A stretch of DNA of 64,000 nt from Gordionus sp. m RMFG-2023 (taxonomy: Eukaryota; Nematomorpha; Gordioida; Chordodea; Parachordodidae). Of this stretch, positions 52,276 through 63,300 are shown piece by piece. The notes beneath the pieces were generated by a model. That model was given only the letters and a program-made list of their open reading frames with translations, ran no database searches and was not told where the DNA came from. The stretch spans positions 30,729,366 through 30,793,365 of the forward strand of contig NC_088777.1 of the NCBI RefSeq assembly GCF_954871325.1, in the 5' to 3' direction. Each line of letters starts with the position of its first letter. Position 1 is the first letter of the stretch. Position numbers and translations under genes: made by a program.

Positions 52276-52827
52276 TATTACATTCCCATAAAAGGAAATT
52301 TTTAATAGACAAAAACATATATTTATTCTAAGAAAAAAGTTTTATTGTTGTGTTTATTACATAATATAGTTAGGTAAATGTTCTTCACTTAAAAAAAATA
52401 CGATTGGTACAATAAAAAAAGAAATATTGTTATAGATCATTAAAACAATTATTTTTAGTTTGTTTTTGAACAGCGTCTACATGGCAGAAAATTTGATGGA
52501 GGCAACCCCCATCCCAAATCTACCCCTACCCCCCTAAAAAAATTTCGCGGCCTTCGGCCGCGATATTTGCCTTAATCAAGAAAATCTTATATTAAGTCAC
52601 TATTTATACCCTTACAAACATTCAGACCTGCTTTGGAAAAAAAAATTTACAAACTGATAACTATTGTTACTATCCGTTTTCAATTAACTTATATTTAAGT
52701 AGGTAGTGCAATCTTTTCATAATTTGATTGATAATCAATTTATTTTCATAAAAATTAATATAATAGTATTAAATGAGATAACATATTTACATTACTATAA
52801 AAAAATATCAAAAATTTAGTAAAAAAA

Positions 52828-52965
52828 TATAAGATGAGTAATTTTAAAGAGGTATAGCTTGATTCTATAATTACTAATACCTTTATATTAAGTAAAAAAA
52901 ACAAAATGAGTAATTTTAAAGAGGTATAGCTTGATTCTATAAATACTAATGCCTTTATATTAATT
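52828..52965. repeat. Two ~68-bp direct repeats near the hAT right-hand gene end
   Basis: GAGTAATTTTAAAGAGGTAT followed by AGCTTGATTCTATAA and a CCTTTATATTAA tail occurs twice in tandem. It is downstream of the transposase stop, inside the element. Confidence 0.8.
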
Positions 52966-52974
52966 AAAAACATT

Positions 52975-53370
52975 CATATAGATATAACTATTATATAAAA
53001 AAAATTTTTATGTAAATATAACTTTTATATAAAATATTAGAATAAAGAATATAGTATATTTTGCACAAGAATTATAAAAACATTTATGTAAATATAACTA
53101 TTATATAAAATATAAAATGAATAGAGTATATTTTGCACTGGAAATATAAATTTTTTTATGTAAATATAACTTTTATATAAAATATGAGAAAAAAATGAAT
53201 ATAGTTGCACTGGAATTATAAAAACATCTATGTAAATATAAGTTTTATATAAAATATTAAAATAAAATGAATATAATATATTTTGCACTGGAATTATAAA
53301 AACATTTATGTAAATATAACTATTATAAAATATTTAAATAAAATGAATATAGTATTATATTATGCACCGG
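52975..53370. repeat. ~60-65-bp tandem repeats, about six copies
   Basis: Units contain TATGTAAATATAACTATTAT, AAAATGAATA.AGTATATT and TTGCACTGGAATTATAAAAA. They lie just 3' of the transposase stop. The minus-strand open frames across them (52755-52973 and 53037-53288) are repeat artefacts. Confidence 0.85.
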
Positions 53371-53451
53371 ACTAGAATGATATAAAAAACTATTAAATTA
53401 AATTTACATTATTAAAAAGGCGTATATAATTAGCTGTGAAAAAGATATAAC

Positions 53452-56400
53452 TTATTTTATTAATAATTTAGTTAATCTTTTAGACGTAGATGCAAATCGC
53501 GTTATAATGTCGTCTATTTTAAATCTTTCAAAAACATCAATTTCGCTGGATATTAGAAGTAAATTTTCTAAAAAGGGGTCAGAAATTTTATTCCGCATTC
53601 TAGTTTTATTTATTTTGACTTTGCTCATCACTCTTTCGGCTGAACAAGAAGTAGTTGGTAGAGTCAATAAATATTTATATAATAAATATAAATTAGAATA
53701 AGAATTTAATTTATTTAAAAGACGATATGGTAGTATAAATGAATATTTTATCCATTTTTTTGTATTAATTATGTTATCGTTATTGATATCTTCCTCGGTT
53801 TCATCGTTTACAATACCTTTAATTATATATAATTTTAAATAAAATATCAATAAATTACTTTCATCAATATATAACCCATCATTCTTTTTTATTTTCAAAA
53901 GATCCTTGCAATAAATGATTGCTTGTGAATCCAAATATAAAGATCGAAAATCATTATATTCACGAGCAATATCTTGAGCATTTAATTGGTAAGTATGACA
54001 AATTTGAGATATTTGCCACCCTTCTATTCTATCATTGGCTATAATTCCAGCTGGTGTAAAAAGAGATATTTGAGATAAAAAATTTAAACAATCATAATTA
54101 AATCTTTCATTTAAATCATTAATGATTGTATCAAGCACAGGGAAAAATATTTCCCTTTTATATCTATAATGCTAAATAATAATTTTAAATCTTTTTTTAT
54201 TCAACTTGTTTTTTTTTGTTTAACATAATTATTGAATGCTGTTTGATCAAATTTGAATATTGATTTTATATTATGCAATTCCGTTGTAACATTATTCTTT
54301 TTCAAATAACTGTTAGATAAGGAATGCAATTTTAAAAAAATATTATCCCCATTAGCTACATTTTAAAATTATTTATAGAAATCGTAACTAATTTTAACCT
54401 CTTAGTCTTTGTAATTTATTTTTTGTGTGTTGTATTAATTTAGTTACCATAGCCAAATCATTACCAACTGCCTGCATTTCAATACAAGCCTCATGTGTGC
54501 ATTTCAATATTTCTTTCAAAATAAATAGACTTAATATGAAATCTTCATCCTTAATTCTTGTTAATAATCCATCGGCAATAGAAGAGGTGCTTGGGTCATT
54601 AGAATCTTTTAATTCATTTAATGATGCTATAATATGTTCATAAACATCTAAAAAAATTTCTACAGCTTTATAAGATGATGACCAATTTCTAAAAAAAGAT
54701 AAGTTACATTAAAAATATTATATTTACCTTGTTGTATTTTTTATTCTTTTAAGAGATTTTTTAGACTTTGTCATTTGATATTTAACAAACACTCCTTGAC
54801 GTCTTACCCCATTCATGAAATTATATAACTCATCCAATATTCCCATTACCTTTTTCATTTCTATTTTGCATCCACAAACATGAGCAACTACTAAATTGAG
54901 CCTATGTGCATGGCACCAAATATATATGGCTTTTGGAGCCTCTTTCAATATTAAAGCCTGCATTCCTTTGTATACTCCTCTCATATTCCCTGCACCATCC
55001 ATACTTTGCCCAACCATATAATCAAGAGGAAGACCAAGATCTTTGAACTTAGAAAAAACATGTTTCTTTATATTTTCCCCGGTGGTTTCTGATGTTGTAA
55101 AAACATGGATGATCCTTTCTACAGGATGTGGATGCGGATCATCTTCTATATATCTTACAAGTAAAGCAATGCATTCTTTTTTAGACACATCATATGTTCC
55201 ATCTAATATGATGCTATAGGCACAATTCTCTTTAATTTTTTGAATAATACATTTTATTATTTTTATCTTAATGACTTCAATAATTTTTTTCACATGGCCA
55301 TATGACAATAAATTTATATAAGGTCTTGAAATTTTATCTGATTTTTTTCTCCTCAATTTTTCGTTGTTATCAATGTATGCCCGTAAAGTTGGAACCGTTT
55401 TTGCCATTAATTTTATGAGGCACATAAAATTACCTTCATTCGAATTAGTGCCCCAAAAGGCTATGTTACATTTTATAAGGTATATAATGGCATCAATAAT
55501 ATTATGAACTATATTACGATTTTCCATTATTATATCAAGCCTATTTGATAGAAAATGATCTTGAATACGCTTATTTGCAAGCCAAGTCATGTTGGTGTAT
55601 TCACAATCCTTATGAATAGAAGATGACTCATGTCTCTCTAAGTCACGCTTAAAATTTTTCCAATTATTTACTCCAAGTTGAGTCCAAAAAGTATTGGATT
55701 TAGGGCCACCAAACATAAGACAATAAAGACAAAAGACTTTGTCTAAAGTGGTGCTATAGGATAACCAATTTCTTGGTTTGAGGGAACCATCAATATTAAC
55801 CTTTTTATAATAGGATATATTCATGCTCCTATTTAAAAGTAGAAATAATGGATGCGTAAAAATTAATAAAAATTAAATTTTTTAAAAACCTTTTGTGAGT
55901 AACAGGATATTGAAATATATTTGAACATGGCTGACATGGGCCTATGGAAATTATGAAATTAATCAAGATATTTGTCATTCTAAAGAATATGAAATGAAAA
56001 GGGTCATTAGGCTCCTTTTTTTTATATAATTGAATAATATTTGGGCCTTTAATGTTTGAAATATTTTGGCTTGCATTGGGATTGATAATTGGATGAAAAA
56101 AAGATATAATTGGGGAATTTTCAATAACTTTGTGTGTTTGCTAATTATTATTAAAGAGTGTATAGTTTTATTTAAATTAAATACCTCATCATTCAAAATC
56201 AGCAGATCACTGGAACTGGGCATTGTATGAGAAGATAATATAATTTGGGAATCTTCAGTAAAAGATTTGTGCTAATTATTAAATAAAGAATAATTAAAAT
56301 TTGTTTATTCATGAAAATATCTGAATATCCTCATTTATTCCCTTCAAAATTATAAAAGAAATCTTATTTAAATTAAGTACCTCATTATTCAAAATCAGCA

Positions 56401-58334
56401 GATCACTGGAACTGGGCATTGTATGAGAAGATAATATAATTTGGGAATCTTCAATAAAAGATTCATGCTAATTATTAAATAAAGAGTGGTTAAAATTTGT
56501 TTACTTATGAAAATCTTAATTTTAATAAAAATTTTATTCTTAATTAAGATATAGAAAAGTGGAAAATATTTCATAATTTATTCACTTCAGAATTATCAAA
56601 CAAATCTTATTTAAATTAAGTACCTCATCATTCAAAATCACCAGATCACTGGAACTGGGCATTGTATGAGATAATATAATTTGGGAATCTTCAGTAAAAG
56701 ATTTGTGCTACTTATTAAATAAAGAATAATTAAAATTTGTTTATTCATGAAAATATCTGAATATCCTCATTTATTCCCTTCAAAATTATAAAAGAAATCT
56801 TATTTAAATTAAGTACCTCATTATTCAAAATCAGCAGATCACTGGAACTGGGCATTGTATGAGAAGATAATATAATTTGGGAATCTTCAATAAAAGATTC
56901 ATGCTAATTATTAAATAAAGAGTGGTTAAAATTTGTTTACTTATGAAAATCTTAATTTTAATAAAAATTTTATTCTTAATTAAGATATAGAAAAGTGGAA
57001 AATATTTCATAATTTATTCACTTCAGAATTATCAAACAAATCTTATTTAAATTAAGTACCTCATCATTCAAAATCACCAGATCACTGGAACTGGGCATTG
57101 TATGAGATAATATAATTTGGGAATCTTCAGTAAAAGATTTGTGCTACTTATTAAATAAAGAATAATTAAAATTTGTTTATTCATGAAAATATCTGAATAT
57201 CCTCATTTATTCCCTTCAAAATTATAAAAGAAATCTTATTTAAATTAAGTACCTCATTATTCAAAATCAGCAGATCACTGGAACTGGGCATTGTATGAGA
57301 AGATAATATAATTTGGGAATCTTCAATAAAAGATTCATGCTAATTATTAAATAAAGAGTGGTTAAAATTTGTTTACTTATGAAAATCTTAATTTTAATAA
57401 AAATTTTATTCTTAATTAAGATATAGAAAAGTGGAAAATATTTCATAATTTATTCACTTCAGAATTATCAAACAAATCTTATTTAAATTAAGTACCTCAT
57501 CATTCAAAATCACCAGATCACTGGAACTGGGCATTGTATGAGATAATATAATTTGGGAATCTTCAGTAAAAGATTTGAGCTAATTATTAAATAAAGATTA
57601 ATTAAAATTTGTTCATGAAAATATCTGAATATCCACATTTATTCCCTTCAAAATTATAAAACAAATCTTATTTAAATTAAGTACCTCATTATTCAAAATC
57701 AGCAGATCACTGGAACTGGGCATTGTATGAGATAATATAATTTGGGAATCTTCAATAAAAGATTTGTGCTAATTATTAAATAAAGAGTAGTGAAAATTTT
57801 AGGCAAATGACTTATTTTATTCTTAATTATAATATATAAATTTTTTTTTAACAAAAGTTGAAATATTTAAATATTCTTATAATTTATTTCCTTCAAAATT
57901 GATAAAGGGCATAATAAAAATGTACCTATATATTAAAAATCTTATCTTTAATAAAAATTAAAAGTATTATGCTCAAATTATAGATGAAGAATTGGTTTCT
58001 ACTAATTCACAAAATTTAAGGTTATTTTTACTTATATTTATTGTCATGAATTAAAATAATATATATAAAAAATTACTTTTTGGAAGTAAGATGTTATTGA
58101 TTTTTTTTGTAACTTGGTTTCAACCCCATTTGTGATATTGAATGGAATATCTTTATTTAAGGATACCCAATTATTATCCTTTTTGATAGCTATCTTTGTA
58201 AATTTGATATCAGATAACTTGACATGAGGATGTTTATGTTTATAATGGTTATTTATTTTGTCACTTCTTATTTTAGAAGTTTTACAATTAATATAGTCAC
58301 ATTTGACTTTATATATTGTTTTGTTACTTGGCAT
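53452..58334 (-). CDS. hAT transposase, ZMYM1-like, spliced, with an amplified exon
   Basis: Minus-strand exons: 58334-58077; eight array exons (57768-57685, 57579-57496, 57339-57253, 57143-57060, 56903-56817, 56707-56624, 56467-56381, 56271-56185); then 56140-55890, 55828-54728, 54688-54399, 54355-54225 and 54171-53452. If all are used the frame closes at 3435 nt (1144 residues); without the array it gives 916. Residues 1-86 carry a C2H2-type finger (CDYINC, then HYKHKH) and the SITSYFQK motif. Next come the array and GPCQP. A TTF-type finger follows (CLYC, then H and C). Catalytic core: LDGTYDVSKKE (Asp near 607), GQSMDGAGNMRG (Asp near 675), CHAHRLNL. The C-terminal dimerisation domain has TLPTTSCSAERVMSKVKINK. 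Introns outside the array are mostly 39-61 nt. It encodes the enzyme that cuts and inserts the element. No stop was found in the model. Splice use is inferred. Confidence 0.85.
56185..57768 (-). repeat. Tandem array of eight phase-neutral exons (436-bp dimer units)
   Basis: Eight exons of 84 or 87 nt, each between a TAG/C acceptor (seven with ATTAG or GTAG contexts after A/T-rich sequence) and a GAG/GTA(C/T)TT donor. All have lengths divisible by three and phase 0 at both ends. Two types alternate: one begins HESFIEDSQIIL with SSSDLLILNNE, the other HKSFTEDSQIIL with SSSDLVILNDE. Equivalent positions recur at exactly 436 bp (57579, 57143, 56707; and 57339, 56903, 56467), with near-identical intron sequence. 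The next exon (56140) starts with a diverged homologue (THKVIENSPII), the probable source. Confidence 0.9.
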
Positions 58335-60189
58335 CTAGAATAAAAATGAAATAAATATTTAGATAATATTTTTTTACTCACTGATGGCCATCAAGAATGA
58401 TGGAGAATCATAATTTTATCCTTTATTTGACGGTGGATGGCTGAATCTTAAAATTCTCCTATCTTATGAGGTGTGATTCAGAAATTAAATTTATATTTGT
58501 TTAAATGAGGGTGTAATTTTAAAATTTTCCAGTGGTTTTACAAAATATATTAAAGAAATATATATTTAGATATTTTAATATATGTGCACAATAAATTTTT
58601 ATTCATTTGTATTATATTTTTAATCTAAAAAATATATTAAAATCTTTTAAAATAAATTCTTATTCATTTGTATTTGTAATTTATAATCAAAAAAATATAT
58701 TCTAGACCCTTATTGTTTTTAAATTAAAATTCATAAATATACACTCTATTAACATATTTTATAAAAATAATGAAAAATTTACTGATTCAATCATCATCAT
58801 ATAAAGGAAATTTATTATGCACCCATCATTGAATAAAGAAGAAAATTCTGATTACCAGTCATTCATAATGGACTATCAGCTATTAACTTATATTTTTGAT
58901 AATGTTTTCTTAAAAGATTCCTATTATATTATATGTAAGCTTAATGCATGGTCACAAAAAATATAATATTTTTTGTTATTTATGCCAAAACAATCATGGA
59001 TCAATATTTCCTCCATTATACACTTCACAATTGATTTCTTTATTTCTTAGTGTCCAACAATTTTTAGAAATGTATGATGCTTTGAAATCATAGTTTCTTT
59101 AAATTAACAATCCTAATAAATTTTGCAAATAATTGAAAACAGGCATATTTGTGATTTGCCCATTCATTTATCTTCAAATAAAGTCTGAGAAATGATATAT
59201 TTTAATCATTGAAATTAGAGACCTTCACTGGCATTGATTTCTTCATCCAGCCTAGGTCATAAGTAAAAATAATTTTCAGGCCCAGTTCATGTTTAATGGA
59301 AATCCAAACCCAAACCACATCATAGGTTTCAAAGATTATTCCCAAGCCATATCCAAAAATTTAATTTATTGTTAACAAAAATAAACAATATTTCAGTATA
59401 TGGAATCACTTTGTCAATTCATTTAATTGAAATCTTTTCTTAAATCAATAATCAAATGAGAGGAATAGATTATCTGTTCATTCTCCCAAGATTTCTATAA
59501 ATATTTAGAAAAAAGGCCAAATATATTATGGAAAATTTGATGTTATATAAAATTTATCTAATAATGAAATAAAAAATTTATCAATTCTTTTAACAAATTT
59601 TTTATCACACAATGGTTTTCACCTCTCACTTATAATTTTGTATATAATTTACACTTACCTCAAAGAATCATTTATCATAAATAGAAATCAATTATGGGTC
59701 CAACCTGATTGCCTCACAAAAATGTGGTAATATTTACCCCATTGAAAATGATTATTTAAAAAATTATTAGCAAAAATAATTGCCATGGTTCAAAACCCAG
59801 ATAACTTATTAAGTATACATATTAAGATTAAATAAAAATAGCTTCATTCTTTATTATATTTATTTATCTATCATCAAATTAAGGAAAATGCAATTATATG
59901 CTTAAAAAATTACCTTTTTAAAATCCAAAAATGTTTCTTTATATTGTTAATTGAGTAGGATTATCTTATCATAAAAGGGATTCTTTATTCAAAAGGTCCT
60001 TATTATAAAAAAATATATATTGATAATTTAAAATTGATACTGTGAAAATCTAAATCCCATTATGTAAATGAATTTTCTAAAAATTTAAAAAAATAAATAT
60101 AGTGTATAATATTTATAAATTGACAGATATCTTTTCTTTAATTGACATTTTTCAGAAAATCAACGATAATCATATCGATTATTGGATTT
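58335..60189 (-). other. 5' region of the hAT element, upstream of the transposase
   Basis: 1.9 kb without a recognisable open frame. It should hold the transposase promoter. No other coding exon was recognised, and the SITSYFQK exon at 58334 starts with a suitable ATG. Confidence 0.45.
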
Positions 60190-60325
60190 AAAAATATCAT
60201 AATACAAGTCAAAAATTACCCTCCAAAAATCAATACCTACCCCCCAAAAACAAATGCCTACCCCCCAAAAATCAATATCTACCCCCCAAAATTAATACCT
60301 ACCCCCCAAAATGCCAATATTTTTT
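60190..60325. repeat. Subterminal CTACCCCCCAAAA repeats of the hAT
   Basis: Five ~20-bp units of the form (C/T)CTACCCCCCAAAA followed by (T/A)CAAT(A/G)(C/T) lie just inside the right terminus. A shorter CTACCCCTACCCCCC occurs inside the left terminus (52520-52536). Such subterminal repeats are typical binding sites for hAT transposases. Confidence 0.75.
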
Positions 60326-60679
60326 GGAGGCATTTGTCTCCTACCCCCCGGCCATGTAGACACTGTTTTTGAACAAAAATTTTAAATTTCCTTAACCCGC
60401 CTGTCCATTGTTTAAATTTCTTAACCCGCCCGCCCAGCCAGCCCATAGTTTCAAATTTTTTAACCAGCCCGCCTGCCCATTCTCGAAAAATATTTTACCC
60501 ACCCATCCGCCAGCCCACTTAGTGGGCGGACGTAGGCGGGCGGGCCGAAACCTCGCCCAATGCAGACCTCTAATACCCATTAAGACCAAGAATGAAGACT
60601 TTCAGTAAAAATATTAAAATTAGCTATTATTTGATGCCCATATCGATATTTTGTGTTGATAAAAATATTTCTGACCCCC

Positions 60680-60959: not shown

Positions 60960-63300
60960 CGTGTTTATTGTTTTTGATTTAGAAAGATGTTCAAAAATCT
61001 TTGGTTCTAGTAATAAATAGGCACTGCCATTATATTTTACTCCACGAGGAAAATATAAATGTAAAATTTAAAAAAAATTTATCTTAAGCCTATTTAAAGT
61101 TTTTGATACTAGAAAGATGTTTGTAAACCTTTGGGTCTTGTAATAAATTGGCACTGCTGTTATATTTTACTCCACGAGGAAAAGAATTGCGAATTATTTT
61201 TAAGACTTGGTTTAAACCTAGTTAAATGTTTATGATATTAGGAAGATGTTCTAAAACTTTTGGGTCAAGTAATAAATTTGCATCGCCATTATATTTCACT
61301 CCACAAGAAAAAAATAAATTGTGAAAATTTTTTAAAAATATATTTTATAGCTTGTTAATAGTTTTTGATATTAGAAAGATGTTCTTAAATCTTTGGGTCT
61401 TGTAATAAATTGGCACTATTGTTATATTTTACTCCTTGAGGAAAGGAGTTTATATTTTTTAAGTTGTTTTAAACCTAGTTAAATGTTTATGATATTAGGA
61501 AGATATTCTAAAACCTTTGGGTCTAGTGATTAATTGGCACTGCTATTATATTTTACTCCACAAGGAAAAAATAATGTGAAAATTTTTTAAAATTTATCTT
61601 AGGCTTAGTTAAAAGTTTTTGATACTAGACAGATGTTCTTAAACCTTTGGGTCTTTAAATAAATTGCCACTGCTGTTATATTTTACTCCACGAAGAAAAA
61701 AATTTATGAATTATATTAAAGACGTTGTTTAAACCTAGATAAATGTTTATGATATTAGGAAGATGTTCTAAAAACTTTGAGTCTAGTAATAAATTTGTAC
61801 TGCCATTATATTTTACTCCACAAGAAAAAAATAAATTGCAAAAAAAATTTTAAAATTTTTTTATACCTAATTAAAAGTTTTTGATACTAGAGAGATGTTC
61901 TTAAACTTTGTGTCTTGTAATAAATTGGCACTGCTGTTATATTTTACTCCACGATGAAAAAAATTGTGAATTTCTTATAAGACATTGTTTTAAATCTAGT
62001 TAAATGTTTATGATATTAGGAAGATGTTCTAAAATCTTTGGATCTAGTAATAAATTTTCACTGCCATTATATTTTACTCCACAAGAATAAATTCTAAAAA
62101 TTTTTTAAAAATTTATCTTAAGTCTATTTAATAGTTTTTGATACTAGAAGGATGTTTTAGTATCTTTGAATCTTGGAATAAATTGGCACTACTGTTATAT
62201 TTTAACTCACGAGGAATATAAAATTGCGATTTTTTTTTAAGACGTTGTTATATACCTAGTTTGTTTGTGATATTAGAAAGATTGTCTAAAACCTTTGAGT
62301 CTAATAATGAATTGGTACTTCCACTATATTTTCTCCACGAGGAACTAAATTATTAATTTTTTAAAAAATTTTGTCTTAAACTTAGTTTAAAGTATATGAT
62401 ACTAAAAAAAGTGTTCAAAAACTTTTGTGTTTAGTAATAAATTAGCATTGTTATTATATTATACTCCACGAGGAAAAAAATTTAAGAAAATTTATTAAAA
62501 ATTTGCTTTAAGTTTTTAGTTAAAAGTTTTTGATAATAGAAAGAGGTTCTAAAACTTTACGATCTAGTAATAAATTGGCACTAGCATTTTATTTTACTCC
62601 ACGAGGAAAAATATATTACGAAAATTTTTTAAAATTATGTTTTATGCTTAGTTAAAAGTTTTTGATACTAAAAAATGTTCAAAAATCTTTGGCTCTAATA
62701 ATAAATTGGCACTGCCATTATATTTTACCCCACGAGAAAAAATAAATTATGAGAAAAAATAAATAATTTAATTTTTTTTTAAATTTATTTTAAGCCTAGT
62801 TATATGTTTTTGTTACTATAAAGATGTTCTAAAACATTTGTTCAAAGAAATTTCTAGTTCTAATATTTTTTAACCCCCGCGTAAAATGTAAAAATAAATT
62901 ATATATTTGTGTTTTGAGCAAGGTTCATATAGTATTAGATCCACACTGCTATTCCATTTTATTCCACGAGGAAAGTTAAAATATAAATATTTTTAAAAAC
63001 TTGTTTATGAGACTAGTTAAAAGTTCTTGATACTATAAATTTTTCTTAGAACCTTAGATTTCATAGAGAAATTCCCATTGACATTATTTTTTATAATTCC
63101 TTGCGTTAAAATTTAGAAATATTTAAAAATATATATTTATGTTTTGAGCTCAATAGTAAGTTTGGGTCTAGTAATAAGTTGTCGCTATCATTCTATTTTA
63201 ATCCACAAAATTATTAAAAATTGGAAAACGAACTTTATTTTGTGCCTAATAAAATGTTTTTGATATTAGAAAAATGTTCCAAGGCCCTAGTGTATAGAAT
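60960..63300. repeat. Satellite of ~130-bp units
   Basis: At least 14 clear copies, and three to four diverged ones at the right end, share TTTTTGATA(C/T)TAG(A/G)AAGATG, CTTTGGGTCT.GTAATAAATT, GGCACTGC(C/T)(A/G)TTATAT and TTTTACTCCACGAGGAAA. The last word recurs near 61040, 61170, 61300, 61430, 61556, 61686, 61816, 61946, 62076 and onward, giving the period. Neighbouring units alternate (GTTTATGATATTAGG versus GTTTTTGATACTAGA), so a ~260-bp dimer is the higher-order unit. No coding content. Confidence 0.93.

Follow-up and report, generated by a model that had tools for sequence, protein, structure and literature searches.

The window, a 64,000-nucleotide stretch of the genome of the nematomorph Gordionus, holds a 7.9-kb hAT element with its gene on the minus strand (Table 1). 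The terminal inverted repeats start with CAG, with CAGCGTCTACATGG at one end and CAGTGTCTACATGG in the opposite orientation at the other, and are flanked by an 8-bp target duplication (TTTTTGAA in the window copy, CATCGAAG at locus L012). In the Pfam comparison both DUF4371 (PF14291, 49.5 bits against a cut-off of 32.1) and the hAT dimerisation domain (PF05699, 24.2 bits against 21.4) exceed their thresholds; the hAT transposase gene that an initial annotation had read here and the span it proposed for that gene both stand. The finger in exon 1 scores 18.7 bits as zf-C2H2_aberr, under the cut-off of 27. Among six copies examined for target duplications, the window copy and L012 have a plain one and at L013 the flank matches at a second, inverted element end; L009 and L011 show no duplication, and at L014 the sequence examined revealed no right element end. 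The motif TACCCCCC is repeated near both ends (52527-52534 and 60238-60349) and nowhere else in the element, and its repeats may be subterminal transposase sites.

Table 1. Features of the hAT element in the window; array exons are listed in gene order, from 57768 to 56185. P0014 is an NCBI-annotated protein.
Feature	Position	Strand	Details
hAT element	52471..60365	-	inverted ends CAGCGTCTACATGG / CAGTGTCTACATGG; borders common to genome copies
Target site duplication, left, TTTTTGAA	52463..52470	.	8-bp
Target site duplication, right, TTTTTGAA	60366..60373	.	8-bp
Exon 1 (86 aa), with the start codon and a weak C2H2-like finger	58077..58334	-	100% to P0014 residues 1-86; GT 3'
Array exon 1, 84 nt	57685..57768	-	
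Array exon 2, 84 nt	57496..57579	-	
Array exon 3, 87 nt	57253..57339	-	
Array exon 4, 84 nt	57060..57143	-	
Array exon 5, 87 nt	56817..56903	-	
Array exon 6, 84 nt	56624..56707	-	
Array exon 7, 87 nt	56381..56467	-	
Array exon 8, 87 nt	56185..56271	-	followed directly by a 44-nt intron
Linker exon 3' of the array	55890..56140	-	AG before, GT after; QTHKVIEN..YPVTHK as in P0014
Main transposase exon (DUF4371)	54728..55828	-	PF14291; AG before, GT after
Remaining transposase exons, several, with hAT dimerisation region	53455..54688	-	PF05699; P0014 pieces stop-free; AG before 54688

The array at 56185-57768 comprises eight phase 0-0 exons of 84 or 87 nt between AG and GT, each with TAG on its 5' side and GAG/GTA on its 3' side, a length that is a multiple of three and no stop. 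Introns of 105/109 nt and of 156 nt alternate between them, and Tandem Repeats Finder reports a period of 436 in 3.8 copies with 98% matches at 56168-57799. Adjoining homologous exons of equal phase, with splice signals on each, are the feature of tandem exon duplication, and the dimeric 436-bp array of eight such exons is present as first described. Its placement after the N-terminal finger and ahead of the core likewise stands, and exon skipping is indeed frame-neutral given the lengths and phase. It is important to note that the eight intact window exons should not be counted as eight separate pieces of evidence, since the dimers are near-identical duplicates of one another.

With the array as genome query, 40 of 225 first-look candidates were scored: two are full length with eight exons, 33 have the six-exon length, one is about 1.0 kb, three have 861 bases and one has 756. 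A direct count in 21 copies (the window copy and 20 of the 39 others), made with an exact 18-base core that mutated exons would escape, gave eight exons in two copies, six in 16 (of the 33 with the six-exon length), five in one and four in two. The proposed genome search thereby did recover other array sizes, and the eightfold form holds for the window copy and one other but is not the family norm. Arrays of 4, 6 and 8 exons differ by whole 436-bp dimers (193 + 243 bp spacing), and the five-exon copy is damaged. The exact core pattern identified 232 array exons genome-wide and none in a reversed control. Among fourteen six-exon copies the mean divergence is 0.025% and the maximum 0.068%; L016 and L025 stand outside this alignment, L025 for want of a key sequence. 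In 14 of the 21 copies all seven non-array coding pieces are present and stop-free, and no piece departs from P0014 by more than one difference, in a comparison that leaves out two residues at each piece end; the set fails in L010, L016, L021, L025, L026, L027 and L028, the last of which yielded no exon 1. Splice signals, frame and freedom from stops are kept in 124 of the 125 array exons of these copies, the one broken exon (by frameshift, stop or lost donor) lying in one of the 21.

Array peptides occur in frame in annotated proteins: six in P0014, five in P0008, three in P0001, two in P0002 and one in P0007. P0014 (1077 aa, in a cluster of 17) consists of exon 1, six array peptides, the linker and the full transposase; among the loci examined it fits best to L011, a six-exon copy on the same contig C5, and the six array peptides encoded at L011 are all present in it, placed after the N-terminal finger and before the transposase core. 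P0008 fits best, among the same loci, to L030 of a sister family and includes all five array exons seen there, with neither a further array exon nor its exon 1 found in 1.9 kb upstream. P0001 and P0002 were placed at L037 and L036, each by two residue strings that occur in no other examined locus, and P0001 includes the three array exons seen at L037, a sister locus with 588 bases covered upstream for array exons. Of the four array proteins that could be placed, three thus include the full complement of array exons visible at their own locus. The exception is P0002, labelled isoform X3: L036 carries three array exons whose signals are intact, its exon 1 is located upstream, in L050, with no further array exon on the way, and P0002 therefore skips the first of the three. 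Exon skipping as initially proposed is supported in part, by this one annotated isoform, but P0014, P0008 and P0001 carry full sets and speak against the further claim of many N-terminal variants with 0-8 copies from a single element. Nor do the annotated models follow the one-exon-per-transcript pattern of the Dscam type, as two to six array peptides stand together in P0014, P0008, P0001 and P0002, against one in P0007. P0007, with its one repeat, and P0003, where array exons lie out of frame by eye, match no single locus among those examined. NCBI isoforms are built from RNA-seq, and near-identical element copies could exchange short reads; the models may derive from reads shared among copies or from homology. 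Besides Gordionus proteins, the searches matched only P0010, a protein of 421 aa that lacks the array.

The sister family of the window's element has arrays of its own. In 20 sister loci, the best-scoring of 132 matches listed and hence biased toward intact copies, 48 of 56 array exons are intact and eight, in eight of the loci, are broken by frameshift, stop or lost donor; the array sizes of 1 to 5 are lower bounds, with 1.5 kb covered upstream of each match. The window exons form one clade separate from the sister exons with local support of 1.0 (26 distinct sequences of the 56 intact exons), and array introns can be aligned from one family to the other, a pattern that fits an early duplication and, after it, separate amplification or homogenisation. 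By eye, the last sister array exon is followed in annotated models by a 40-nt GC-AG intron; at L036 (1132-1260) this intron lies in sequence like the start of an array intron, as if a former exon start had turned into array intron. A third family, represented by P0013 (59% identical to P0014; best locus L055, with L057 upstream), has one 84-nt phase 0-0 exon directly after exon 1. Its agreement in place, length and phase suggests the single-exon state, but its sequence is too distant to prove homology.

Comparison of the two families separates the array from the rest of the gene. The transposase core has a dN/dS of about 0.1, with dN of 0.032-0.034 and dS of 0.27-0.30 in the main exon (window against three sister copies, L030 not being comparable), and the corresponding window-sister values are 0.10 and 0.43 in exon 1 and 0.084 and 0.72 in the linker part. 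For the array exons dN is 0.23-0.27 and dS 0.21-0.23 in five window-sister pairs, imprecise estimates from about 18 synonymous sites each; because dN about equals dS, the array peptides evolve at about the neutral rate. Between families the array exons diverge by 15-21% and the introns by 11-18% in their alignable parts; each intron pair also shows 8 to 11 indels, many not divisible by three. Exons of both families measure 84 or 87 nt and differ by whole codons only in a codon alignment that is in frame by construction, having been built from the protein alignment; when exons of the two families are paired in a gapped DNA alignment, 2-nt gaps appear in pairs, along with some of 3 nt. The evidence on frame is modest, since the copies are not independent, the codon alignment has its frame built in and the introns, being AT-rich, align with many gaps. 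From these divergences and whole-codon gaps, array exons are no better conserved than array introns in substitutions, with frame and splice sites alone being kept. The initial annotation had offered exon-intron divergence and broken exons elsewhere as challenges to its own reading: on the former the exons show no excess conservation in substitutions, and on the latter broken array exons do occur in other copies, 1 of 125 in the window's family and 8 of 56 in the sister, so that on this half of its own refuting condition the outcome goes against that reading.

We propose, with a probability of roughly 0.62, that tandem duplication of a linker exon gave rise to a spacer of variable repeat number that is mostly spliced in constitutively. 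The starting point would be a ZMYM1/DUF4371-type hAT transposase in which one linker exon, 84 nt long and phase 0-0, separated the DNA-binding finger from the catalytic part; this exon would then have been duplicated in tandem along with its flanking intron. The duplicated exons would have retained splice sites and frame, from which we infer that they are joined into mRNA, mostly all of them, in the window copy as well; the product would be a transposase whose linker is made of Ser-rich repeats of 28-29 residues, their number being set by the element copy (4, 6 or 8 in the window's family). Array length would shift fast, normally by whole 436-bp dimers and probably through unequal exchange or slippage in gap repair after excision. 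As selection would hold frame and splice sites, and not peptide sequence, the repeats may be best regarded as a tolerated spacer in which occasional exon skipping would be harmless to frame. Direct support for this reading is provided by the array structure, the annotated proteins with in-frame peptides, the variation in copy number, the near-neutral peptides and the single exon in a relative. The gene structure is real and unusual; deliberate production of many variants is unproven, and regulated use of exon number is possible given the one annotated skip.

Under a stronger version of such regulation, one element would yield transposases of differing repeat number, for example active and inhibitory forms, by regulated skipping. 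The uniform 84- or 87-nt lengths and phase 0-0 of all eight exons would permit it, the omission of an intact exon in P0002 and the isoform labels X3 (P0001, P0002, P0005) and X4 (P0013) agree with it, and DNA transposons with alternative splicing are known in Spm and SmTRC1 (PMC1636069, in excerpt). We nevertheless consider it unlikely: most placeable array proteins use the full set of exons at their locus, and no constraint is detectable on the array peptides. In a search of the array region for inverted repeats that might serve docking/selector pairing, 34 pairs came up, mostly AT-rich and with none above 30 nt among the 25 longest shown, with no chance control. A Dscam-like variant generator is not shown. 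More speculative still, and quite improbable in our view, is a self-adjusting module of protein length, where mutation of the dimer array in amplification bursts, combined with a splicing layer, would let both the element population and each single copy make transposases of graded linker length that tune activity or yield dominant-negative forms.

A passive origin has to be weighed from the opposite side, namely a neutral, minisatellite-like intragenic expansion spliced in or out without consequence and intact only because it is recent. The lack of excess exon conservation in substitutions, the near-equality of dN and dS, the labile array size and the single clade of window exons, by which the present copies are young or homogenised, are all in keeping with it, but arrays exist in two families separated by a main-exon dS of 0.27-0.30 with frame and splice signals kept in 124 of 125 and 48 of 56 exons, many between-family intron indels are not divisible by three, and annotated proteins contain the array peptides, which together render it rather unlikely. 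A role at the DNA level, with the array units as binding sites or enhancers of the element, is very improbable: strongly similar units do recur in the 5' part of the gene, but the end motif TACCCCCC, the only one checked, occurs once at 52527, five times within 60238-60342 and nowhere in the array. The tolerated spacer is our preferred reading. As to what the repeats might do as peptides, a SUMO-binding-motif role for EDSQI[IV]LS was considered and dropped, the exon being without constraint overall. AlphaFold2 (nine sequences) modelled P0014 with a mean pLDDT of 45.7 and rendered the array as strands, for which the means per block were about 35-60; with a repeat protein and a shallow alignment these predicted strands are not trusted, and folding of the repeats cannot be deduced from them. 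A search of solved structures gave one chance-level match (E 0.035).

The element has in common with ZMYM1/DUF4371-type hAT transposons the inverted CAG ends, the 8-bp target duplication and the DUF4371 and hAT dimerisation domains, and among the members described we know of none whose gene carries symmetric exons in a tandem array. In titin's PEVK region, too, a repeat spacer of variable length is encoded by successive short in-frame exons, but titin is a structural gene of the host, its exons are divergent and their use is regulated by tissue. Among the matches listed from open-licence PubMed Central titles and abstract starts, none concerned an exon array in a hAT transposase, an absence that is not proof. 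Alternatively spliced exons duplicated in tandem, in Dscam-like and other genes (PMC9013439, in excerpt), are likewise adjoining and homologous, whereas the array described here lies in a mobile element, consists of near-identical exons included several together in the models and varies in size between copies of one genome. Schistosome micro-exon genes, according to the excerpted source (PMC8293314), also have symmetric exons that can be dropped without loss of frame, but these are mostly 36 bp or less and encode host-exposed proteins, unlike the 84/87-nt duplicates in a transposase. Spm and SmTRC1 are likewise DNA transposons that make several proteins by splicing; both belong to the CACTA superfamily, and SmTRC1 is drawn with a tandem-repeat region, with no duplicated exon array in the excerpt of that report (PMC1636069).

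The locus captures tandem exon duplication in a DNA transposon that has spread recently and whose copies, though closely similar, differ in array size. The copies form a naturally occurring dosage series of 4, 6 and 8 repeats, to which a relative adds the one-exon form, and this series can be used for probing the role of the linker between finger and catalytic part in hAT transposases, as well as how exon arrays arise and change.

Several minor features accompany the element and its relatives. The 5' part of the linker exon looks by eye like one further degenerate repeat. Tandem repeats of 72 bp (4.7 copies, 53000-53353) lie between the gene end and the element's left end, and a 130-bp tandem repeat (7.7 copies, 73% matches, 60970-61970) lies just beyond the element. 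The reverse strand of L057 has a reading frame at about 1905-2070 that resembles a cytochrome oxidase 1 fragment, perhaps nuclear mitochondrial DNA. Finally, L013 and L028 (C5, about 5.929-5.942 Mb) are element copies close together in opposite orientation with their left ends facing; the sequence flanking one copy on its right is the same as that flanking the other on its left, an arrangement like that of a composite insertion.
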